A DNA stretch of 64,000 nucleotides from assembly GCA_905221615.1 (NCBI GenBank), contig CAJNDT010002013.1, forward strand, positions 186,001 through 250,000, in the 5' to 3' direction. The first letter of the stretch is position 1. Each line of letters begins with the position of its first letter. The notes under the pieces were generated by a model. That model was not told the origin of the DNA. It searched no databases and saw only the letters and a list, made by a program, of their open reading frames with translations. This stretch comes from Symbiodinium sp. CCMP2592 (lineage: Eukaryota > Sar > Dinophyceae > Suessiales > Symbiodiniaceae). Positions 3,090 to 56,347 of the stretch are shown piece after piece. A program made the position numbers and the translations under genes.

Positions 3090-5000
3090 GGGCCCTTCAA
3101 GGGAATACACCTAAACTCCAAACCTGAGATCGAATTCCAAGACAAAGCCTAAGGCACAGCACTTAAGAACAGAAAGCTGTGTCCCCTGACATAAGGCAGA
3201 AGGCTTGATTTCGAGACCCGAACATGTCAGACTCCATATCGCTTCCCCTTGTAGGTAGTCCTTATCAAATTATACCACAATGCATCCTGCTACTCCATTC
3301 GAACACCGTGTTTTTGCATGCGAAGCTGCACTGTCGGCATCGGGTTCTTGTGCCTGGGTTGGAGGGGTATGTACCCCGAGTCCAACGCTGTACCCAATGA
3401 CTGAGGCATCTTCCTTATCCCAAAACAGCAAGCAATGAATTCACGGCGTAGTCTATGCCCTGAACCCCCGAACACTGCCCTAAACCCTTAACGGTCGTAC
3501 ACACCCTGGCCCTAGGCCCTATGAGCCCTGAACCTAAAACTCAGAATTCTTGCGAACATCGCTATGAAGCCGAAGCAGGTGAATCAAACCACAACTTGCA
3601 ATCGAAGTCACTTCCACTCCAAACCGCGAAGAAACTCAGCATAAGCACGCCCTGAACACTGAACATCCTGCGGGCTAGGGTAGGATTTGATGCTGCAAGA
3701 TCTGATTCCCCAACTGCCCAAATGCCGAACATTCGTACCTGGACCCTAAAATTATGTAGAATAATAGCCCTTTGTAGGTTTTGGACCATTATTTTACCTA
3801 CCTTTGGAGGTTTAGGTATACGCTCCGGAGCACTGATCCACGGCCACTACTGCTCGAAACGAAGAGTCGATAAAGCTCAAGCCTTACAGTAGAAGCCAAA
3901 AAGTTGGAAACCCCATAGCCTCAATCCTTAAGAGTAACGTATAGGGAATCCCAGCACTATTTGGCCTCAATTCGGTTTCCAACTTTATGGGGTTTACTGT
4001 AAACCCTAAACCCTAAACCCACCAAAAAACCCTATAGATCCCTTATAGATCCCTTTGAAGGAACCCCTAAACCCTAAAGCACAAATATTGGATACTTGGA
4101 CCCTCCAGGTTTCCTCAACTACCCAAGCGCAAGCACCCGGCAGCCAAGTGCCTGTCAACGGAAAACCCATGCGATCACGGCCGACAACAAGAACTCTAAA
4201 GGTCTAATGCCTAGAGCCCCCCCTTAAACCATCGTTGAACCCTCATAGAATCCACATAGTTTGTAGAGAACGTTTTCAGACGGTTGTTACATGTAATCAA
4301 ACCAGGTTCTGTCAAGAACCCTTCCTGTTAACCCCATGCGAAACAATGAGCCAAAGATCCCTGCAAAACTTCAAACACGCAGTCAGCCGTCTTCTTGGAA
4401 ACAAACAACAGAAACAAACAACAAATACCAAATCTGTAGTAGAACCTTTATCAACCGGTACACTCATAAATTCGTTAAGCAGTCTTCTTGGAAGCCTGCA
4501 ATAAGTACCAAACCTGTAATCACCTTTATCAACCGGTGTCAAGCCCTCTAAATCAGCTTTCGGTGCAGGATCTCTGTCGAAAGCAGCGCTCGCAGAAGCG
4601 GCACTGAGGGCAAAATGGTGCGATTCCCAAACTCACCAGGAGTATATGGCGTTAAGATTGTACGGAGGGTTGGGGTTCGAGGTTCAGGATACAGGGGCGT
4701 GGGTTGAGGACTTTTTTTTGAGCTCCTGTTTCCAACTGCAGGAACCCTGGGTTGAGGACTTAGATAGGGTTGTGATCAAATTTCATTCGTCAGGGTTTTG
4801 ATATGAGGTTCGATCGGTTCTCGTGTATACAGAAAGTATTGCAGGATTTGCGGTCCAGCCGTTGATCGGGCTTCCTAAACAACCGAAAACTGGCATCTTC
4901 AGGGCTAAACAGGCTATGGGTTAAGTCGATTAGGGTTATACCCCATGGCTTCGTGGCTCCCATCTACACGCCCCTCCCTGCGCACATGCCCTGCTTTGTT
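3090..5000. other. No gene recognised
   Basis: Degenerate CCCTAAA wording, one family D element, and an imperfect duplication around 4384-4538 (CTTCTTGGAA, TTTATCAACCGGT twice). Open frames here look like chance. Confidence 0.4.
3885..4001. mobile_element. Family D MITE
   Basis: TACAGTAGAAGCC at left, GGTTTACTGTA at right; AGTTGGAAACC inner arms. Confidence 0.75.
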
Positions 5001-7712: not shown

Positions 7713-7817
7713 TACGGTTGATGATATAAATCCTGCATTACCCACAACAAGGAATATGCCATAATTCCCATAGTTTAGGGTCCCTAAGGTAACGCAGGAT
7801 TTATATCATCCACCGTA
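7713..7817. mobile_element. Family C MITE, copy 2
   Basis: TACGGTTGATGATATAAATC left, TTATATCATCCACCGTA right, TA ends. Confidence 0.85.
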
Positions 7818-10070: not shown

Positions 10071-10164
10071 TACCCTAAGGCCCCAAAGTAGGTCCTTATT
10101 GGGGTTCATACATAGATTTCTATAAAGTAATCCCCAAAAGGAACTACTTTGGGGCCTATGGGTA
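10071..10164. mobile_element. Family A MITE, copy 5
   Basis: TACCCTAAGGCCCCAAAGTA left, TTTGGGGCCTATGGGTA right. Confidence 0.85.
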
Positions 10165-13518: not shown

Positions 13519-13662
13519 ATTTGGGAGTTTCCGAAAATAGGGGACCCTGGAACAATAGCCTAAATACTAGGGTCATTATTATGAGGACCCCATCTAAAAA
13601 AACCCTTATGGAGCCCTTTAAAGGAACCCTAAGGTACCCCTTTATATCGGAAATTCCCATTT
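13519..13662. mobile_element. Family E MITE with inserted sequence
   Basis: TTGGGAGTTTCCGAAAATAG left, TATCGGAAATTCCCA right; about 40 bp longer than other copies, with extra CCCTTTAAAGG wording. Confidence 0.65.
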
Positions 13663-14745: not shown

Positions 14746-14982
14746 TACGGTTGATGATATAAATCCTGCATTACCCATAATAAGGAATAAACCTAGGGCT
14801 CCTTTAAAGGGATCTATAGGGGTACCTTTAAGGGATCCTTTAAGGGATCTATAGGGTTTTAGGGTTTAGGGTTTAGGTTGATGATATAAATCCTGCAATA
14901 CCTATAGTAAGGAACATACCATAATTCCCATAGTTGAGAGGGTCCTTATAAGGTAATGCAGGATTTATATCATCCACCGTAG
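14746..14982. mobile_element. Composite family C element
   Basis: A left half C element (14746-14780), then TCCTTTAAAGGGATCTATAG wording, TTTAGGG repeats, then a complete C element from 14876 to 14981. The same order recurs at 18550-18738. Confidence 0.7.
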
Positions 14983-16682: not shown

Positions 16683-16797
16683 AATATAGGGGCCTTAATA
16701 ATCAGAAAAGGGTTTCGGGGCCCATTATACTCTTCAAAATAAGGAGCCTCCCAAATCGTATAGGTAATTTATTAAGGCCCCTATATTGTTCACGGAC
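16683..16797. mobile_element. Family H MITE
   Basis: TATAGGGGCCTTAATAAT left, ATTTATTAAGGCCCCTATA right. A lone H right end lies at 16881-16898. Confidence 0.8.
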
Positions 16798-16885
16798 ATC
16801 CGTCGGTCAGAGAAGCGAGTCGAACGAGCCTGGTGGCACTTTGGCCAATCCCAGACCTTACCTAAAATGGAATCAAGACATTATT
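16795..16885 (+). CDS. Candidate exon between two foldback elements
   Basis: Frame TSVGQRSESNEPGGTLANPR PYLKWNQDIIK fills the gap between a family H element and an H fragment plus family E element, as expected for an exon flanked by element-filled introns. Confidence 0.4.
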
Positions 16886-16894
16886 AAGGCCCCT

Positions 16895-21773: not shown

Positions 21774-21867
21774 TACCCTAAGGCCCCAAAGTAGTTCCTT
21801 TTTGGGGTTCATACATAGAATCCTATAAGGTAATCGCAAAAAGGAACTACTTTGGGGCCCATGGGTA
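21774..21867. mobile_element. Family A MITE, copy 7
   Basis: TACCCTAAGGCCCCAAAGTA left, TTTGGGGCCCATGGGTA right; only a few mismatches. Confidence 0.9.
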
Positions 21868-29777: not shown

Positions 29778-32700
29778 GAGAGAGAGCACCCAATGGTTTC
29801 CAATCGATGGGCAACAACTCGACAAGGTCGCGACATCATGATCCTGGTGCCAACATAATGAACTTAGCTATGATCATACCGACATCATGCCGTAACTTTC
29901 CCAAGCTCACCGTGCGTTGCGGGAGTGCTTGGCCCCGTCGACCCTACACACTAAGCCTTTGATTCCCAAACCAATGCGACATGTTAGCTTTGGCATACAA
30001 ACACCCATCATATAGCTTGTAGAACCCAAGCACCCCAAATATACACTCAAACCCCAAACCCTAAAGACACGAACAACAGTCATACGGAGCCCTGAACGAT
30101 TGAAACCCTGATTAAAGTCCTGTATCCAACCAGTCTCGATGGGTCCACATGCAGGCGTTCAAGCTGACTTTTCAAGCCTCCGCCGTTCTGGCTGGTTCCC
30201 AATAGTCTTGCCAAAGATTATACCCCAAACCCTAAAAGCTCTGAGCGCCCTGAACTTATCCTAAGTTACCACAATCCTCTTCTTTGTAAGGTCCCTGAAA
30301 GTTCCAGGTGCAGTTTATGCGACGGGCCTGTATAGTTGCAACAATTCAGCGCTTCTTTATATACATACGCGCACCGTGGGGAACCGTAGGGCCCGAGGGA
30401 ATACTGTTACGAACGAACACGCCGCCATAGCCCTCATAAAATCCTCCACCCATTATGCGTCTATGATCACTGACCCTAAATCCTAGCGCTTTGGGCGAGA
30501 CACGTGCCCGAAGAATGGCATCGAAAACAATCATCGCCAGCTGCCAGTTTTGGCCTCTCAGGAGCAGTGAAAGGTGTAAGTCCAGTGGTTTCAGGGTTTC
30601 GGGACCCTGAAAATTCCACAGTACGTTTTTTTGGAACAACCCGACATGCAAGTAAACTGTTTCATAAGCGATTTTCGGCCCTAGAATCCATAAAAAAAAC
30701 CCAAATCCAGGCAAACCCCTTTCGATACTTCATCTGGAATCTCAAACTTTCCAGAAAAGTTGGTCAGCTTGCCAGGATCCTCAAACCGAGGTCCTGGTTC
30801 GGAAAGCTACTGAAGAGAAGCTTTGTAGCACGTTGGGTTCCCCTGAGAAGAGCGTCGCAGTCTTAATTGGTGCTTCTGTACCGGGAGAATATGAGATTTC
30901 GGCCAGAACGAATAATCAGGTAGGTAGCGGCACTGAGGGGACATGTGACTGTGTTATAACTTATATAAGTGCAGTTGCAGCTGGACCACCCATCCGCCGA
31001 GCATCAGAAACTGCGTGCCCGAAGCTTGAAACCTTAACTCTAAAATGAAACCCCCTTTCCCCCCAACCTTGAACTTTTAAAACCCAGAAAATATCATGAA
31101 GCGTACTCCACCGTCGATCAGGAAATAGCTACACGGGAAGCCCGGTATACCCCTTCCGAAACTCGAAAGTCCGGATTCTGACTTGACCTGAACCAGAGGT
31201 GTTAGCTACTATTTGCTTAAGAAACCCCCAAAGAATAAAAAATAATAATCCCTATATTACCCCCATAAGGAATATATTTTTTATTTTTTGGGGGTTCTTA
31301 AGCAAATAGTAGTTAGGGTCTCTGGCTACGCGGTCCTCGTGAACAGGAGCTGATGATGGCATTGTAGCTGATGACGCTGGGGGTGAGGTCGGATGCCGGC
31401 ATGCCATTCAGCAAATGCAGGGCCATGGGCCACTGCTCCTTGGATGCTTTTGGTCTGGACAGGTACTAGTATCTTTTTGTGTCCGATTGCAACAGAAGTA
31501 GCATTACGATCTCCACCAATCCCTTCAAAATCCCAAACTCAAGAAATGCGCAACATGAGAAACCGTCAGATTCGAACATGCGAAATCATCCATCCCAAAT
31601 GCAGCAGGGAATTTAGCGGCTGCATTTGCCGATCCACCTGTCCCCGAACTGCAACTGTCATGGCCCTGGTCCTGATGCGCCCGCATGCTGCCAACCGAGA
31701 GCTGTCTTGAAAGGGCATCTAGACCTAAGAGTAACCTAGGAATGAAGTGGGTGCCCTTTTTGGTTTAAAGTGGGGTTCTCAAGGGAACCTAAACCTCAAA
31801 CAAAAAGGGAATACAAGGGCCTACTCTGGGTCCTGGGCATGGTTCAGGGGCATGATCCTCGTCGTGCCCAAAGCTCTACAGCCATTGGAATGTATGGTAG
31901 CAGAAAAGATACTGAGATAGTCGTACTAGTATGCATCTTGAAACCCTATCCCAAGTTAGCACCTCGAAGCCCCAAACACTGAACCCAAAACCCAAAACCA
32001 GCCTAATGCTAAATCCGAAACCCTATGCTAGGATGCCCGATAACCTAGGAATAAACTACGAGGGCTCCCCTTTTTAGTACTGGGTAACTGTATATGGAAC
32101 CTAGGACTACAAAAAGGGAATAAGGGTAATACTGAGCATCCTAGGTACTGAGATAGTAGTACTAGTAGAAAATACATGCTACCGCTGGGGATAAAGAAGA
32201 AGCATGGCACTGACAGCAATAATGATGGTGATGCTGATGCAGGCAGCAATTGTCAATCCTACCCAGAGGCTCCATAGTAGTTCCTTTTTGGGAGCACCCT
32301 ATAGGATTCTAAATATGAAGCCTTAAAAGGAACTACTATGGAGCCTTAAGGTAGTACTTTGGGGCCTTAAGGTAAGCCCTGAGCCAAACTAAACCCTGAG
32401 CAAACTGCGCCTATTCATTGAAGTTTGTAGTAGGACAGGATAGTATATGGTTTTTTGTGTACTATAACATTAACGACTGTCCGAAAACCTCGAACCGCAT
32501 AGTTTTATCGGGGCCATCCAACTTCCAGGCTGAGCTTCGCCCTTTGCGCAGGTGCTGATGGCGGTGCCGAAGCCTTAGATATGCATGTACGGTTTAGGGT
32601 TTAGGGTTTAGGGTTCAGGGTTTAGGGTTTAGGGTTTAGGGGTTTAGGGTTATGCATCTTTGGCAAAGCCGTTTATATCAGGTTCCTCAATTACCTTGGG

Positions 32701-35794: not shown

Positions 35795-38700
35795 AGGTAG
35801 CTATGTAGGCCTCTATAGCACAAAGGAGCTGAAGATGTGGAATCGCATGGAAGATGTTCAGAGCCAGCTCCCATTGGCCACCTTTCTCCTCGGATGAGGT
35901 TGGGGGTCTAGGGGTTTAGGGCTGAGGGTTTAGGGTTTAGGGCTGAGGGTTTAGGGTTTAGGGTTCTGAGGGTTTAGGGTTTGGGGATGAGGGCCTTAGG
36001 GTTTGGGGATGAGGGCCTTAGGGTATAGGGTTGAGGGCCTTCGGGCTTAGGGATGATGGTTTGGGGTGAAGAGCTGCATAGGAGAAGGGGTTGGGCTTGC
36101 TACTACTTGTGCTTTTCAGGGATGTTCCAAAATCAAAGGGCATTCGGCTCGCTGGGAAGCTTAGGATTCGAGGTTCAGCACCATCCGCGACGGTTTGGAC
36201 ACCAGCGAGCCCATAAAACATACACAGGCTGTTAGCAGCAGCAACACGAAAGCACTGGAATTCGGAATAGTCAGGTCTTCGTCTCCCAACATGTAGTTTT
36301 ATGATAATACAAACCCTTGTAGTCACAAGCTGCCTTGAAACCACCAAAGTTTGCCAGAGGCTACAGTACCATTAGACCAAGCAAGTTTCGCATGAGCTGA
36401 TCGTGGCGTTGCAGCTGACGACGTCTGGCGCGAGCTTGACCACGGGCCTCGGCTGTTCAACAAGCCACCAGATGCCACCAGGGGTTTAGGGTTTAGGGTG
36501 TAAGGGTGTGATAAGGATCCAGAAACTAACAAGCAAAAAAGTCCGTCCACACTTAAACACCAGCGTAGAATCCTTGAAATTCCACTGAACAACCCTCTTT
36601 GGGGTCATTTACCTTACAGCAGGAAGCCTGAAACCAACAACTCACAAAAGCCACTAGACACAAGGCCCAAAACCCCAAACCCATCCATGGTAGAAGCCTT
36701 GTAGTAGCACTCGACAGCCCTTTTCTGGCATTTGTGCTAGTAGTATAGCATGAACCCACAAAAAAAACTGAACATACTGATATTACTATGCTAAGGTCAA
36801 TAATGAACAAGCGGCATTGTCTGGAAGAGTTGCAGAGCCAGTTGCCATTGGCCACTCTTCTCTAAAGAGCCTCAGGGCTGATACTGTTGATGGACAATAT
36901 CCTGCATGACCCTAAGGACTCTAAACTATGGGAATTATGGTATATTCCTTATTATGGGTAATGCAGGTTTTTGTCCATCAACAGTATTTCGTGTATAGGG
37001 TTTATAAGGGCTCAGGGATTAAGGTTCAGGGCTTGAGTTTGAGGGTTTATGTAGGGTTTAGGGCTCAGGGTTTGGGGTAGAGGCTTTCGGGTTTGGGGTT
37101 TAGGGCAGGGTTGAGGGGTTAGGGTTGGGGGTTTGGGGTTGAGGGTTTAGGGTTTAGGGTTGGGGGTTTGGGGTTGAGGGTTTATGCAAGGTTGTTTTAA
37201 GTCCAACAGCCCCTTACTCCACTGCAGCAGAGTCCAAAGCCTGCTCTGGCAAGAGCGTGCACTACAACACTACCTCGTTTACATAAGGTTTAGGGCTCTC
37301 GGCTTAAGGTTTAAGGTTGAGGGCTTGAGGTTGCGCGTTGACCTGTAACCAACTGTTCTTTTAGAGAGTGCAAAAGGGTTTCAAGGTGATGCTGGGCGTC
37401 AGGTATGGTTAGCTAGCTCACACGACCCCTTTGCAAAGGACAGCCAGCACCGAAATGGGAGTCTTCTCAAAATCAAGGACCCGGAACACGCCCCTACATA
37501 GACAGTATGATCAGGATTGCAAGAAACCCTGCGTTTCTAAACCCTCCAAATCGAAACCTGGCCGACTGCTCCACATCTTGACACAAGAGTAACCCAGGCA
37601 TAAAAAGGATGCCCTTTTTGGTTTAAAGGGGCTTATAAGGGAACCTGAACCCATAAAAAGGGAATAAGGGCCTACTCTAGGTCCTAGACATGCATCCGAG
37701 AGGCTGATCGTAGTGTTATAGCTTACCCGATCCGGCACGATGTGTGCAGCAGGCATCGCATGAAAGAATGCAAGAGCCAGCTGCCACACGGCGCCCTTTT
37801 CAAAAGAGCTGATCGCTGCACTGTAGCTGATTACATCAGGAGAGAGCTGAGACTGTGGCATCCTTGTAAAGAGATGTAAGGAAAATTCCCAATGACTGCC
37901 CTTCTCACAGGAGCTCATCGCAGAGTTGTAGCTAATCGTGTTGGGAGCGAGCTGAGCATTGCGAATGTTACTGAACAGAAACGTAGCTAACTGCCACTGT
38001 CCACCTTTCCCACAGGAGCTGATGAGGGCATTGTGGGTAATGATATTCGGACTGACTTTTGAAGCCAGCATGGCTTCAAATAAGTGCAAAGATCCTTGCC
38101 AGTGGCTAGCTTTCTCACAGGCACTGACGGTGGCGTTGTAGGTGTATATGTTGGCAGTTAGGCCAGCATGCGGTATGGATTGGAAGACTTCCAAAGCTCT
38201 CTGCCACTGCGCACCCTTCTCCAATGAGCTGATCGCAGCACGGAAGGTGAAGATGTCGGCCGAAGACTCAGAAGTCCGGACGGAGCTAAACAAATGCAGA
38301 GCGAGCTGCCATTGGCCGCCTCTCTCACAGGCACTAATACTAGAATTGTAGCTCACAACATCCGGCGTCAGACCTGTCTGTGGCATGCTGTCGAATAGCT
38401 GCCAGGCCAGTTGCCACTGCCCTGCTTTTGCCTCGGCATTCATCTCGAGGTCACCATACTTAAGGGCTCTGGCGATCAGGTGTGTAAGAAGGGCTGTAAG
38501 GAATTTCTCAGTCGAAGCTACCAGAACAAGGAAGGACACTGATACCCTCTAACACCCATATGAAACGGTGACTTGCATTAAGCTCCCGAACAAAAGAGCC
38601 CAGTTGCACAAGAGCTCAGGGCGGCATTGTAGGTAAATACGTCGGGTTTGAGCTCGGACAGCGGCATGTCGCTGAACAGTTGCAAGGCTAACTGCCATTG

Positions 38701-46549: not shown

Positions 46550-46651
46550 TAATAAGAAGAGGATTTTGGGGCCCACTATCATACTCTAAAAACAAACAAG
46601 GAACCCCGCAAGATAGTATAGGTGATTATCTAAGCCCCTATAGCACTAGGT
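46550..46651. mobile_element. Family H element, left end lost
   Basis: GGATTTTGGGGCCCACTATC centre and GGTGATTATCTAAGCCCCTA right end, abutting family I. Confidence 0.6.
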
Positions 46652-46762
46652 TCCTGAGTAGCCCCTTTAGAATGGGGGTACCCTTTTCCTAATATTCATG
46701 CAACTATACCCTAAAAATCAAGAACAAAAAAAACGCAACGGTACTACTCAGGAACCTAGGTA
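46646..46762. mobile_element. Foldback element AA (CTAGGTTCC ends)
   Basis: ACTAGGTTCCTGAGTAGC left, ACTACTCAGGAACCTAGGTA right. Shares the CTAGGTTCC end with PPR gene 2 introns. Confidence 0.75.
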
Positions 46763-47948: not shown

Positions 47949-48171
47949 CCCAGACACTCCAATATCGCTAGTCTCGCTTCATTACGGAATATACCGTAAA
48001 TTAACCCAGGATCCCTGGTATGAGTTACGGAGTAGTCCTTAGTTGAGGGATATGGGAGTTTCTGAAAATCCGGGATACCTTATTTTGGGTTCCTTATAAT
48101 AAGGATCCTACTATAGGGTACTATTTTGAGGGTCCCCTATTTTCGGAAACTCCCATATGGGTGTCTCTGGG
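47949..48171. mobile_element. Family G MITE interrupted by family E
   Basis: CCCAGACACTCCAATAT left, GGGTGTCTCTGGG right; the family E element starts inside GAGGGATAT. Confidence 0.7.
48050..48159. mobile_element. Family E MITE, nested in family G
   Basis: TATGGGAGTTTCTGAAAATC left, CTATTTTCGGAAACTCCCATA right, TA ends. Confidence 0.85.
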
Positions 48172-50313: not shown

Positions 50314-53300
50314 ATTGTAGCCGATGAGGTTGGCCACCAGCCGAGCCTTCGGCATTGCATCGAAAAGCTGTAGGGCGAGTTGCCACTCTGCCCCTCGCTC
50401 CTGGTTGTGTGAGGCTTTACCTATACTCTTATAGTTCCTTTTCTTGGCTTAACCAAATATATATTTAGGATCCTATAAGGTAACCCCAAAAAGGAACTAG
50501 ACTGGCGACTATAGGTATGGTTTAAAGTTTAGGGTTCAGGGTACTCGCTTTCTCAGGAATCAGAGCTTATCTCAGGGCCCAGGAGACTTGGCAAGTAGGG
50601 ACATAATTGGGGTTAGAGGTGCCTTAGGTGGGGTTATCCTGAGTATAATCTTACTTGGTAAGTCCCTTGGACCTTCAAAGTGGGGTCTATGCAACCCGAA
50701 ACTTTCAAAAGCTATATAGACCCTAAACCCTAAACCCCTAAACCCTATTAAGGCGACTTGAACTCTGAATCCATGGTCCCTCATTTTCGGAGGCTGGTTT
50801 TGGAAAGGCAGCCGGCTTGCAGTCTATGCCCTTCGATCCCCGTGACACCTACCCAAAGGCTCCAAAGTAGTTCCTTTTTGGGATCACCTAACAGGATTCT
50901 ATATATGAACCCCCAAAAGGAACTACTTTAGTGCCTTAGGGTAGAGACAAAACACACATTCAAGCTTTGGGGCTTGATAGCTTCGGGGTTTGACCAAAGT
51001 CCAAACTGAATCTTTAAAGCGCCAGGCGTCACAAGAGCTCAGAGCGGCGTTGTAGCTGACGACATCCGGGATCAATTTGCTGGATTGAATGCTGGCGAAG
51101 AGCTGCAGCCCCAACTGCCACTCGCCTGCCTCACGGGTGATGTCTTTTGATGGGGATTTCAGGTGTGTTAAAGGACAAATAAACCAAAACCATTTGAGGC
51201 TTCACGGTCTGTGGCTTAAAAGGTAAAGCGTTAGCGAGGAGTCCACCCGCCAATTCAAAAGGCAAGGCGTTGAAGGAATTGGGGTTAGATGTTCAGGGCT
51301 CAACTTTGCTTCGTTCCGGTAGTTGCGACCCAGTAACTCCCTGTAAGCTAAACCCCAAGCCCAAAATTGGCCTTTTCGCAGGAGCTGATGGCTGCATTGT
51401 AGACAAAGAGGTTGGGAGCCAGCTGAGCTTTGGACATGTCGTCAAAGAGCTGCAAAGCCACGTGCCACTGCCCGCCCTTCCTTCGTTGAACCCCATGCAT
51501 GCAAATCCAGACGCACCGTTTCAACCCTGCGTGCTTCCCACTGAACCCATAAACCTTAAATCCTAAGCCCCTCACACAAACCTCGAAATCAAGCCTACAA
51601 CTAAAATCCCAAAGCCAGCAGCCTCAAGCCGGAACTTCTGACATAGGCCAGGAAAACAGTAGATGGAGGCTTTAGGGGTTTAAGCGTTTAGGGGTTTAAG
51701 GGTTTATTAAGGGTTCAGGGTTTAAGGGTTTAGGGTTTAATTTATGGTTTTAGGATTTAAGAGCTTAGGGGTTTAGGGTTCAGGGGCTTAGGCGGACCCT
51801 AGACCCTCCAAATGGCCAGGACACTCACAGGAGCTGATGGTGGCGCTGTAGCTGATGATATCCTAGGTTCCCCAGTAACCCCTTAATGATAAAGGTACCC
51901 AGTTTTTCCTACTATTCTGTTTTGATAAGGAGACTCCTCCCCTCCAAAATATTAATGGCAGACGGGAACTACGCAGGAACCTAATAGACCCTAAAACCCC
52001 ATAGATCCCTCTAGATCCCTTATTAGAACCCTAAACCCTACAAACCCTTATAGAACCCTAGGTACTAACATCGATCCTTATAGATCCCTTATTTGAGCCC
52101 TAAACCCTATAAACCCTTCTAGAACCCTATAGGTACTAACTCGGGAACCAAGTACCCAGAGTTAAACCCTAAACCCTACCTTAACCCCGAAGAACCTAAA
52201 TATTTAAGGACCATATTAGCGAACCCTAAAAAGGTAGGTTCCGTAGGGTCCAGGTAAACCCTAAATTTACTAACTCGGGAACCCTAAATCCCATACCCTA
52301 AACCCTAAATTACTAACTCAGGAACCCTAAATCCTAAACCCTAAACTACTAACTCGGGAGCCCAGTATCCGGAGCCATCCCGGCCGAAGGCATGAGAGCA
52401 AAGAGCTCCAGAGCCATCTCCCAGGGGCCCCCCTTTTCCTGGCGTTGTCCAGCTTTTCCCAAAGGGTCCAAGTATCATTATGGTATATATGTAGACCCCC
52501 AAAATACCCTATAAGTATATACCATAACGATACTGGAGCCCTTTGGGTTTCTGGGGTCCAGGGGTTTCGGGGTTCCCTTTTGAGGGATTCTTTTAAAGGC
52601 TGCTATAAGGATACCATGAGGGTTTAGGGTTCATCCGTCAGGTTCAGGGTTTTCCGGGCTTTACGAAGCTGTTCTGTTACCGGCTCTAGATTAGGGAGAG
52701 TCGGGCCCCAGGTTGGTGGCTTTTTTTTTGCCATTTGGGTTGAACATTAGGATCCCCTCTAAGCTCTAAACTTGGCTTAAGCTTGTAGTCTGGGCTCGTG
52801 GCTCCAGGAGTCCCGGGGTTGCTACGAAACTAATATAAAGGCGAGTTGGGGCCCATGTTTTTAACTATAATAAGGAACCCCCAAAATTATATAGAGAATT
52901 CTTAAGGCCCCCATATTAATTCCTAGTTTCGTCAATTGCTTATGTCCTGCAAGTGCTGGCACTAGGACAGGCACGGGAAAAGAGTAGAAAAGCAAGGTAC
53001 CCAAGGGCCCGAAGCGGTAAGGCCTGTACGCTTAAGCTTTTGGGTTCAGGGTATTTCACCTCTATTGGGTTGAAGGTTTACTTTAACACACTGGGGTTTA
53101 TAGGCGTAGTGTTTGGAGTGCCTGTAGGACCCTAGGCCCTAATTAGGCAAAGCGAATTCCGCTTGCCTAACAAGCGTAGTAGTCAAAGGTATGTTGTGAT
53201 CCTCAAACAATATACTGAAAGAAGGAATCATGTCCCCAGCACTCCACAGGCGAGTGGCACAAGCGCTAAGGGTTGCATCGTAGCTGACGATGTTAGGTCT

Positions 53301-55313
53301 GATGTCAGCCCGCGGCATGTCGCTGAACAGTTGCAGCGCCAGCTGCCACTTCCCACGCTTCTCGCAGGAGCTGATGGCAGCCTGGGTTCTTGTTGAGCAA
53401 TTCTGGGGATCTATAGTAAAGAATGTGCTTTCCTTATTATGGTAACTTACATTTAAATCCCAACACAAGAGCCCAGCGGCACTGTAGCTGATAACATCCG
53501 GGTAGACGTCCAGGTCGGGCATAAGAGCAAGCAAGTGCGTAGCCAACTGCCAATGCCCAGCTTTCTCACATGCGCTGATGGTCGCGTTGCATGTGATGGC
53601 ATCCTGGGCTCTTCCCATGGAGCTCAGGTTGGTTTTTAGGGTTTAGGGTTTAGGGCACAATAGGCATGGAAACTAATCAAATAACATGCCCTCCTGAATC
53701 TTGCAGCTAAAACTTATAAGCTTCCTAACAGGAACCCAGCAACAGGAGCAAGCTTTGCCCGAGGCATCGCGGAGAAAATTGCCAGAGCCTGCTGCCATTG
53801 CCCGCACTTCTCACAGGAGCTGATCGTGGCATTGTAGATGATGGAATCCTCGCTTCTTTAATTGGCAGGTAACGGGGAATGTTTGCGTGCTATAGGCTAG
53901 GAAAGCACACCTTTCCCTGAACCCTATAAATCCTATAAACCCTAAGTCTACTCATCGCACTAAAACTCAGATGCAACATCCAACACCCCCCGACCCCAGT
54001 CCTCCAAACCACCCAAAACCCTCTTGGACCCAAAACCCTCAACACAAAAAACAACTCAAGAAATCCTGAACCCACAGCCTCAAACCGAATTATCGCTGCA
54101 AGAATCTGGAGATAGCCCTGAGGTCGGCATTGAGTCGAAAAGTCTGATAGCCAGCTGCCACTGCCCTCCCTTTTCGCAGGAGCTGATGGCGGCACTGTAG
54201 CCTCAGAGTACAGGTTGTCCTAGGTACCCTTCATTGTAGATCCTTCTGGGGGGCCATTAGTTATAGAATCCTAAACACAAAATTTGCAGTGACCACAGCA
54301 TTTAGGTCCTGGTTTGATACTAGAGTTGTAATCATAACCATCAAGCCAAAGGAACAGCAGCATTACTTAATCCAGGCCTTGAACGCTATTCCGGGTATCA
54401 CCTAAATTCTAAACCGTACACCACATCTTAAACCTTAAGCCAAATTTAGGTCCCTATTGAGGTCCTTTCTACATGAGTGCCGTACTATTCTGGTGACCTA
54501 AAGGGGCCCGTAATTTGGATAACAGCCCATGAGCAAAGCCTTTCAACAACTCCGGGCAGCTGATGACATCTGGAGTGAGCTTCTGCTGAGGCATCGAATC
54601 AAAAAGCTGCATGGCAAGCTGCCATGCCCCACCCTATCGCCGGGCTCGCTTTAGGGCTTGGGACTTTAGGGTTTAGGATTCAGGGTTTAGGAACTGTACT
54701 AACGCCTGGGTTTCTGCGGTCGTTCCCAACCCTAAACCCTAAACCCTTGAAGCCCCAAGCCAACAAAAAGCCCTGAGCCTTCTCCAAAGCGCTGATGGCA
54801 GCATTGTAGCCTAGGTTTCCGAGTGCCCCTCAAAACAAAAGATTACCGCTTCCGGTTGGTTCAGCTTTAGAGCATAACCCAAAACGGTGAAAACTTGGTC
54901 TGGGGCGTACAGCGGGTTAAAACAAAGGGCACAATTCAGAAACCTAGTAGCTAATGACGTTTGGGAGGAGCTTCGCATCGGAGATGGCGTGGAAGAGCTT
55001 CACGGCGAGCTGCCAGTGCCCGCCTTCAAGCGTCAGGGCTCTAGTGGTACTTAGGGGGTTTACGGATTTAGGGGCTTCGGGCTTTGGCCTTTCGAGTTTG
55101 GGCTTAGGTTTATGGTTTAGAGTTTAGGGCTCAGGAGATGAAAACAGCAATCACACACCGAGCCACCCCAAGGCCTCTGCAGGTCTAAGAATTGAAAGCA
55201 ACACCGCACTCTCCGCACATGGACACCCCGAACCAATGAACCGTGCGCCTTTCTGACAAGAGCTGATGGCAGCGTTGTAGCTAATCACATCTGCGCTCGC
55301 CTCTCGATGCGTC
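50314..55313 (-). CDS. PPR repeat protein gene 2, 13 exons, both ends open
   Basis: Exons in transcript order: 55249-55313 (5' end uncertain), 54952-55023, 54779-54810, 54561-54633, 54107-54201, 53744-53848, 53481-53603, 53259-53381, 52370-52438, 51825-51862, 51372-51480, 51031-51129, 50314-50400. All phases agree, giving about 360 codons of PPR repeats (AWQLAMQLFDSMPQQKLTPD, CEKAGHWQLATHLL, CERGAEWQLALQLF). Likely an organellar RNA-binding protein. Donors are seven GC, three GA, two GT; all acceptors are AG followed by G. The 53744-53848 exon is exactly 105 nt, one 35-residue motif. Introns range from 99 to 820 nt and hold elements J, O, A and L. No start or stop seen. It could be the upstream part of PPR gene 1, but no linking exon was found between 50.3 and 39.5 kb. 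Confidence 0.75.
50418..50517. mobile_element. Family L MITE with TA ends
   Basis: TACCTATACTCTTATAGTTC left, AACTAGACTGGCGACTATAGGTA region right. In the last intron of PPR gene 2. Confidence 0.75.
50850..50943. mobile_element. Family A MITE, copy 10
   Basis: TACCCAAAGGCTCCAAAGTA left, TACTTTAGTGCCTTAGGGTA right. In the same intron as the 50418 element. Confidence 0.85.
52020..52360. repeat. Dispersed direct repeats in a PPR gene 2 intron
   Basis: TACTAACTCGGGAACCCTAA occurs four times, mixed with CCCTAAA and GATCCCTTAT wording. Confidence 0.7.
52177..52256. mobile_element. Family O MITE
   Basis: TACCTTAACCCCGAAGAACC left, GGTTCCGTAGGGTCCAGGTA right; inside PPR gene 2 intron 51863-52369. 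Confidence 0.7.
52456..52549. mobile_element. Family J MITE, inverse orientation
   Basis: CCCAAAGGGTCCAAGTATCA left, GATACTGGAGCCCTTTGGG right; 18 bp upstream of the PPR exon at 52438. Confidence 0.8.
52830..52916. mobile_element. Family H element
   Basis: TAATATAAAGGCGAGTTGGG left, ATTCTTAAGGCCCCCATATTA right; GAAACTA and TAGTTTC flank it. Confidence 0.6.
54433..54530. mobile_element. Decayed family F element
   Basis: AGGTCCCTATTGAGGTCC left, CCCGTAATTTGGATAACAGC right. In intron 54202-54560. Confidence 0.4.
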
Positions 55314-55349: not shown

Positions 55350-55462
55350 CTAGGATACCCAGTAACCTAAGAATAAAAAGGCCACTCTTTTTGGTATTGG
55401 GTAACTTTATAAGGAACCTAGGACTACAAAAAAGGGAACAAGGGTACTACTGGGCATCCTAG
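55350..55462. mobile_element. Family M MITE
   Basis: CTAGGATACCCAGTAACCTA left, GTACTACTGGGCATCCTAG right. Confidence 0.8.
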
Positions 55463-55665: not shown

Positions 55666-55715
55666 AACCTCAAAGCAACTACGGATTAGATGACTTTAGC
55701 TGGGCTTTCGGAGTT

Positions 55716-55829
55716 CCCCAGACCTTCCAACATCCCTTAACTAAGGGGTATACCTTGAATCATACTAGGGATCCTACTATGATTCAAGGTATACTCCTTA
55801 ATGAAGGGATATTGGAAGGCCTGGGTCTG
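55716..55829. mobile_element. Family G MITE
   Basis: CCCAGACCTTCCAACATCCC left, GGGATATTGGAAGGCCTGGG right. Confidence 0.8.
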
Positions 55830-56347
55830 GAAGTCCCTCGCTTTAAGGAACCCTTACGGGATCCGGTAAGGGGTTCTGCAGGGTTTCCCTTTAAAGGGGG
55901 AAGGATTCTGCTTTAAGGGGAGCTCTATAGGGTTTCTTTGGGGATTTAAGGTTTAGGGTTTATTCTTTTGAATGAATTCGGAAGGGTTTTCTGGGGTTGC
56001 CTTTGAAAGCCCAGAGGGTCTATCTTGCTGGATATAAGGACATTGGGGGCCATGTCCGTGCATATAAGATGTGCCCCCCGTGTCTCTATATACAGAGACA
56101 TTGGCTGATGGGCTTCAGGATGGGAGAATACATATGTGCCTTGAGGGACTGCCTGTTGCCTAATGTTGTGCACAACACCCAAATAATGGAATCTGATCCG
56201 AATGTCTTAACAATCTCACTCACGAAGGACTGTTTTCACTGCTGCTGCAACGAGGGGTCTTCATGATTGCTTTGCCGACGGTGCGGAAATAAATCCTCGT
56301 GTCCATGTACATTGTGCTCACATTGTGCTTGCCAGCTTCTCAGGAAG

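Follow-up and report, generated by a model that had tools for sequence, protein, structure and literature searches.

MITEs are non-autonomous TIR DNA transposons: short, with terminal inverted repeats (TIRs), a target duplication of fixed length and thousands of copies. In family 1 of Symbiodinium microadriaticum, as presented by Gozashti et al. 2022 (PMC9860276, Fig. 2B), the elements have TIRs and a 4-bp target duplication, the 3' splice site lies in the element, and the duplication provides the 5' one; the example interval, 86725-86839, is 115 bp long. Roy et al. 2023, as cited in PMC11453091, reported introners in five dinoflagellate genomes, including that of Polarella glacialis, with recent activity in four of the five species and many families. 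PMC11453091 itself gives 25-74% for GC and GA donors in Symbiodiniaceae. Introner elements have also been reported in Prorocentrum cordatum and Effrenium voratum (PMC10666404, PMC11114475) and were searched for in PMC10522408. In Amoebophrya, the introner elements described by Farhat et al. 2021 (PMC7789003) have inverted repeats of 8-20 nt at the intron ends, direct repeats of 3-5 nt over the exon-intron borders and a predicted hairpin.

Here we describe a 141-nt predicted intron in a pentatricopeptide-repeat (PPR) exon of Symbiodinium sp. CCMP2592, on the minus strand of a 64,000-nt stretch of one contig (C2013:186001-250000), which we call the window and to which all bare coordinates refer. 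The process is already published for dinoflagellates, and this intron is a further example of it. Its layout is the same as that given for the S. microadriaticum introners in PMC9860276, the two being likened by description and not by sequence; the 115-bp example there is close to elements of 112-114 bp found here, whereas the focal element exceeds that length, at 137 bp, and lacks a close second copy. With the introners of Roy et al. (via PMC11453091), the likeness is that these, too, are dinoflagellate introners. With the Amoebophrya elements of PMC7789003, it extends to the inverted ends, the direct repeats over the borders and the predicted hairpin; however, many Amoebophrya introns are described there with varied non-canonical borders, whereas 11 of 11 introns placed here have the form G...AG, partly by the rule used for placing them. 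What the locus offers is a clean case: a mobile element probably created the intron in a single step, and the target duplication, the ends and paralogous sites without interruption can all be read within one gene. It also points to a family of ends present in high copy number (4,600 places) in the genome.

The predicted focal intron and its element

The intron was first noticed in a first-pass annotation made from the letters of the DNA, and the observation is confirmed: the 141-nt interval has the sequence and the coordinates described there. It runs from 54951 to 54811 on the minus strand, where the layout is ATTA/GCTA-CTAGGTTTC…GAAACCTAG/GCTAC (slashes mark exon borders) and the longer reading across the site is ...CTCCCAAACGTCATTA GCTACTAGGTTTCTGAATTGTGCCC...GAGGGGCACTCGGAAACCTAG GCTACAATGCTGCCATCAGC.... 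The features of the site are as follows.

54811..54951, minus strand: predicted intron of 141 nt, GC-AG, phase 1 in the Ser codon (A/GC) of a PPR repeat, set by the spliced frame
54952..55023, minus strand: upstream PPR exon (GHWQLAVKLFHAISDAKLLPNVI), set by the frame
54779..54810, minus strand: downstream PPR exon (SYNAAISALEK), set by the frame
54811..54947, minus strand: TIR element of 137 bp, CTAGG...CCTAG, all of the focal intron minus the 4-bp duplication, with inverted ends like those of the genome-wide family
54936..54947, minus strand: left terminal inverted repeat CTAGGTTTCTGA
54811..54822, minus strand: right terminal inverted repeat TCGGAAACCTAG, source of the AG acceptor
54948..54951, minus strand: copy 1 of the putative target-site duplication (GCTA), which holds the GC donor; the 4-bp length is seen on other copies
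54807..54810, minus strand: copy 2 of the putative target-site duplication (GCTA), the first bases of the downstream exon

Excision of 54951-54811 gives PNVISYNAA, which matches other PPR repeats of the region, where PPR exons have a PPR_2 match with an E value of 9.3e-16; when the intron is retained, a stop follows directly after ISY. An AG/GT within the left end, if used, would on our reading of the sequence also keep the ISY stop in the mRNA. The predicted spliced junction joins ATTA to GCTACAATG or, in longer form, ...GTCATTA to GCTACAATGCTGCC. Because of the direct repeat GCTAC, which flanks the element on both sides, several splice registers lead to the same mRNA, and an AG acceptor exists only in GCTAC...CTAG/GCTAC. 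The ends of the element match the PPR exon junction to the base. The duplication holds the donor GC, and the element ends in the acceptor AG; the first-pass annotation had derived both splice sites in this way, and its derivation fits the sequence and the restored frame.

Two of its other statements, an inverted repeat of about 20 nt and a duplication of GCTAC, hold in part. The perfect inverted repeat of the focal element is 9 bp (CTAGGTTTC/GAAACCTAG), but a stem of 20 pairs does appear at the base of the end-to-end hairpin into which the intron folds as RNA; it consists of 12 pairs, a bulge and 8 pairs and needs a wobble pair and a 3-nt bulge beyond the perfect repeat. The energy of this RNA fold has z = -4.42, with 0 of 200 shuffles as stable, and the fold under DNA parameters is weaker (z = -2.10, with 6 of 200 shuffles as stable). 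As for the duplication, the direct repeat GCTAC is indeed present on both sides, but other copies show 4-bp flanks; judged by this comparison, the target duplication is GCTA (4 bp), and the fifth base, C, would be the first base of the element.

We consider it probable that a MITE with CTAGG...CCTAG ends inserted in the PPR exon and is excised as an intron. The earlier proposal that insertion of a TIR element made the intron is supported by recurring ends, mostly 4-bp duplications, uninterrupted paralogous sites and similar introns nearby. The element is like MITEs in its short length and TIRs, and it differs from them in that it seems to act as a whole intron. In the proposed sequence of events, a non-autonomous cut-and-paste DNA element (MITE) would have entered the exon of a PPR repeat at GCTA, presumably driven by a transposase acting in trans, and the 4 bp would have been duplicated. 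The upstream copy of the duplication would supply the donor GC and the last two bases of the element would supply the acceptor AG, which would then meet the G of the other copy (AG/G). Removal of the element and a single duplication copy by the spliceosome would then leave the coding sequence exactly as it was. Since the ends are inverted and start with the palindrome CTAG, an AG would stand at the end of the element in either orientation, and all that would then be required of the target is that its duplicated bases begin with G on the coding strand. The end-to-end hairpin may help to pair the splice sites, which is a fair guess because no donor among the 11 introns placed in the window's PPR genes looks like GTRAGT.

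Other predicted introns of the PPR genes

The 11 introns, including the focal one, were placed in the window's PPR genes by the PPR frame, an AG acceptor and a following G. They comprise the placeable introns only; a junction near 39.4-38.7 kb, with ambiguous borders, and PPR fragments without a clear partner exon were left out. Their donors are GC in 7 cases, GA in 3 and GT in 1. Ends of the CTRGG type, in diverged forms, stand on both sides of 4 of the 11 (the focal intron, 52369->51863, 53743->53604 and 53480->53382) and on the left only of 38607->38432; none was recognised in the six others.

51863..52369, minus strand: PPR intron, donor GA, duplication GATA and GATA, ends CTGGGCTCCCGAG...TACTGGGGAACCTAG; a compound intron in which the final 121 nt match the family profile with 58.8 bits
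53604..53743, minus strand: PPR intron, donor GT, GTTG and GATG, ends CTGGGTTCC...GAGCCCAG
53382..53480, minus strand: PPR intron, donor GC, GCCG and GCTG, ends CTGGGCTCTTGTG...CAAGAACCCAG, inside an open reading frame
38432..38607, minus strand: PPR intron in a gene nearby, with a GC donor, GCAA duplicated exactly, the left end CTGGGCTCTTTTG and no right end that could be recognised

On the minus strand, intron 52369-51863 contains several GGTTCCCGAGTTAGTA-like repeats that resemble its own inverted end, and its 3' end holds a family element that is nearly complete in length; it is apparently a compound or nested insertion. A 167-aa open frame at 53139-53642, minus strand, runs through the apparent 99-nt TIR-element intron 53480-53382, an intron that an ORF-based gene call would miss.

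When the first six bases of each intron are compared with those of the exon that follows, positions 1 to 6 match in 11, 9, 8, 6, 5 and 2 of the 11 introns, respectively; the match at position 1 partly reflects the placing rules, as the borders were set by the PPR frame, the AG acceptor and the following G. Agreement at positions 3-4, which is a prediction of locus-specific target duplications, was found in 14 of 22 comparisons in this small sample, against a mean of 7.7 under permuted pairing (p = 0.0030-0.0036). The permutation p is 0.0085-0.0094 without the focal intron, 0.022 without 38607->38432, where the matching direct repeat had strengthened the choice of acceptor, and 0.052 without both.

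As a tentative generalization, which we hold to be possible but doubtful, most PPR-gene introns here would be TIR elements that duplicate 4 bp, share one broad type of end (CTRGG...CCYAG) and differ in age. If this were true, the odd GC and GA donors and the AG/G rule would be scars of target duplications that started with G, and the near-identical PPR repeats would serve as replicates from which the choice of site, the orientation and the decay of the duplication could be read. At donors that lack a GTRAGT-like sequence, inverted ends may then aid splicing through a fold that brings the two splice sites close to each other.

The placed introns (50.3-55.3 kb and 38.4-38.6 kb, minus strand) recur at few positions of the PPR unit, with different sequences: three times before a GAT codon, twice at A/GC of a Ser codon, twice after a Cys codon and twice after an AAG codon, with a third one base later. 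Such recurrent positions may be repeated hits at equivalent sites, or they may reflect duplication of intron-bearing repeats.

The same introns bear on the best surviving alternative, which we regard as rather unlikely: the MITE disrupted a PPR repeat in a pseudogene or in a gene that is little used, splicing is inefficient, and the clean frame comes merely from the 4-bp duplication. The ten other placed introns fit G-N...AG/G and restore the PPR frame (their borders were chosen with these rules in mind), and three of the ten have the same kind of end on both sides, which makes removal of such elements look routine; moreover, GC and GA donors are common in Symbiodiniaceae according to PMC11453091 (25-74%). 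What this alternative explains well is the restorable frame itself, since precise excision of any TIR element flanked by a duplication would always give back the original frame. It also accords with the poor quality of some neighbouring junctions (intron j). Splicing is itself a prediction from the sequence, and the PPR gene could be a decaying copy.

Uninterrupted paralogous sites

A query made of the joined exons found its own locus in two pieces, and all six non-self matches were continuous across the junction; thus, uninterrupted paralogous sites exist, and their number is at least 6, only the best candidates having been scored. Continuous sites read base by base include GATGTCATTA/GCTACAATGCC, AACGTCATTA/GCTACAGC and GACGAAATTA/GCTACAATGC, and one continuous site (L051) has ACTAC in place of GCTAC. 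The focal site without its intron would read ATTAGCTACAATGCTGCC. A strict pattern for the site, TYAGCTACAAYGCNGCCATCAGC, occurs at 6 uninterrupted places (control 0), and the interrupted pattern AGGCTACAAYGCNGCCATCAGC occurs at 1 place, the focal one (control 0). Four of the six strict-pattern places were read: one (L058) is a regular PPR repeat, and the upstream side of the others (L056, L057 and L059) is not clearly PPR, so that these three prove little. One of the six places lies in the focal gene itself.

55262..55285, minus strand: homologous site without interruption, in the PPR repeat that precedes the focal one in this gene (ATTAGCTACAACGCTGCCATCAGC), with 0 mismatches to the query pattern

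All of the uninterrupted sites are paralogous repeats and not the orthologous locus. In a genome search for the same PPR site with another CCYAG acceptor or any AG acceptor, only the focal case was returned, and introns with a CCYAG acceptor at a second PPR site (GAY-GTY-ATY-AGC) were found at 0 places.

It is very unlikely, in our judgement, that an older intron occupied this position and was later replaced or filled by a MITE whose ends came to lie at the splice sites by chance. The idea gains something from the next PPR repeat, which has an intron at the same position (intron e, 54560->54202, with GCTG and GCTA and with ends that are not recognisable), but the element is flush with both splice sites and has its own duplication, and the site is unbroken in all 6 non-self matches to the joined-exon query as well as in the repeat before it in this gene.

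The family of inverted ends

The structure was also set against chance. Contig C2013 was scanned over 260 kb for exact 9-bp inverted repeats with arms 60-300 bp apart and an exact 4-bp direct repeat just outside; 12 such structures were present, compared with a mean of 0.63 and a maximum of 3 in 30 dinucleotide shuffles. Six of the 12 matches are telomere-like repeats of the TTTAGGG type (four with a common left end), which leaves a clean number of six; these resemble short TIR elements. Many TTTAGGG-like repeats are seen by eye in the window; taken with its PPR exons and its introns with GC and GA donors and AG/G acceptors, they suggest a dinoflagellate of the Symbiodiniaceae kind. For all 1,243 inverted-repeat pairs of the 260 kb, the longest flanking repeat is 2, 3, 4 and 5 bp in 46, 20, 12 and 1 cases, respectively; the 285 pairs of a single shuffle gave 13, 2, 1 and 1.

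Ends were also counted in the whole genome (1,098,105,373 bases in 5,383 contigs; 1.1 Gb), whose size lies well beyond the prokaryotic range. The first-pass annotation had proposed a genome search for elements with the focal ends and of similar length. Exact CTAGGTTTC...GAAACCTAG ends were found at 2 places, including the focal one, against 1 in the control, and a family of exact CTAGGTTTC-ended elements was therefore rejected; the second place (C1060) has flanks without a 4-bp match, by eye. Similar ends do recur: CTAGGNTNCYNAGT paired with its reverse complement at a distance of 82-111 bases is present at 4,600 places, with 0 in the reversed control. The focal copy lies outside the 4,600, as one of its ends has GAAT where the pattern needs GAGT. 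A focal-like pattern, CTAGGTTYCYGA, with ends 95-125 bases apart, occurs at 7 places including the focal one (control 0).

Among the 50 copies listed of the 4,600, 46 belong to a subfamily about 112 bp long, mostly CTAGGATRCCCAGTA, and 4 to the subfamily CTAGGTTCCTGAGT, which is nearest to the focal element. The ~112-bp subfamily looks nearly uniform by eye when 80 bases of copies among those listed are compared. Since the 50 listed copies are mostly alike by eye, they are probably young, and young copies would allow the birth of introns to be followed among strains.

Flanks were compared in 20 copies, namely the first 15 among those listed and five picked for variety: all four bases agree in 13, three in 4 and two in 3. 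Two of the copies on another contig (L045 and L046, C11:74394-74604 and C11:176631-176841) have the same printed sequence and different flanks, which agree at 4/4 bases in one and 2/4 in the other. In the 260 kb, the 88 end pairs of the CTRGG type include 12 good inverted repeats (score >=8, focal included); flanks agree at 4/4 bases in 5 of the 12 good pairs, 0 of 70 weak pairs and 0 of 6 in between. The nearest subfamily was represented by 11 non-focal copies (six of the focal-like pattern, counted by eye, four of the 20 sampled and the copy at 46646 in the window), whose flanks agree at 4/4 bases in 2, 3/4 in 4, 2/4 in 4 and 0/4 in 1. Agreement at 3/4 bases or better has a chance of about 5% and was seen in 6 of 11, so that the excess is clear, yet most duplications in the nearest subfamily have decayed. 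The window has three non-exonic elements with the same end type.

55350..55462, minus strand: non-exonic element of 113 bp with an exact duplication (TTGT on the plus strand)
46646..46759, minus strand: non-exonic element of 114 bp without matching 4-bp flanks
32028..32144, minus strand: non-exonic element of 117 bp without matching 4-bp flanks

The features by which MITEs are recognised (short length, TIRs, a constant duplication length and high copy number) are all found in the end family, and the focal copy has them in its ends and duplication only. An alignment of 11 copies shows common ends of about 25 nt on the left and about 15 nt on the right, by eye. Identity of the focal copy to the leave-one-out consensus of the nearest subfamily is 60/111 (0.54), compared with 0.71-0.90 for the ten others, and with a profile built without the focal copy its score is only 15.3 bits (E 0.0033 in 260 kb). 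When the intron region or the element was used as a BLAST query, only the locus itself was returned, even at E <= 10 (very common words were skipped). As far as the alignments indicate, the kinship of the focal copy to the family is a kinship of ends, its interior being without another BLAST match. The focal copy may be old, with an interior that drifted and ends that were kept by splicing, or it may belong to a separate subfamily that has only the ends in common.

That interior is also what speaks for an ordinary old intron with inverted-looking ends that arose by chance, which we consider highly improbable given a chance rate of about 0.63 per 260 kb for all positions together and closely similar ends at thousands of places. 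That the intron spread through RNA by reverse splicing, the route suggested for introners of fungi, can practically be dismissed: nothing found here speaks for it, inverted ends and a target duplication are present here, such ends also occur outside PPR exons, and the fungal introners are described in PMC9860276 as having neither inverted ends nor a target duplication.

A search of the whole window against Rfam at gathering thresholds gave no match. A long near-perfect hairpin is seen by eye between PPR exons at about 55715-55835, minus strand. The window also holds other MITE-like elements. Six of about 75-207 bp, at 7728-7802, 14761-14966, 16688-16894, 13523-13658, 48054-48154 and 31206-31312, have inverted ends that include AAATCCTGCATTACC, AGGGGCCTTAATAA, GGGAGTTTCCGAAAAT and CTACTATTTGCTTAAG. 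Three elements of about 70 bp, at 961-1031, 10083-10152 and 21786-21855, have the ends CCAAAGTAGTTCCTTTTT or close to it and GGCC flanks, and these three apparently constitute another MITE family.
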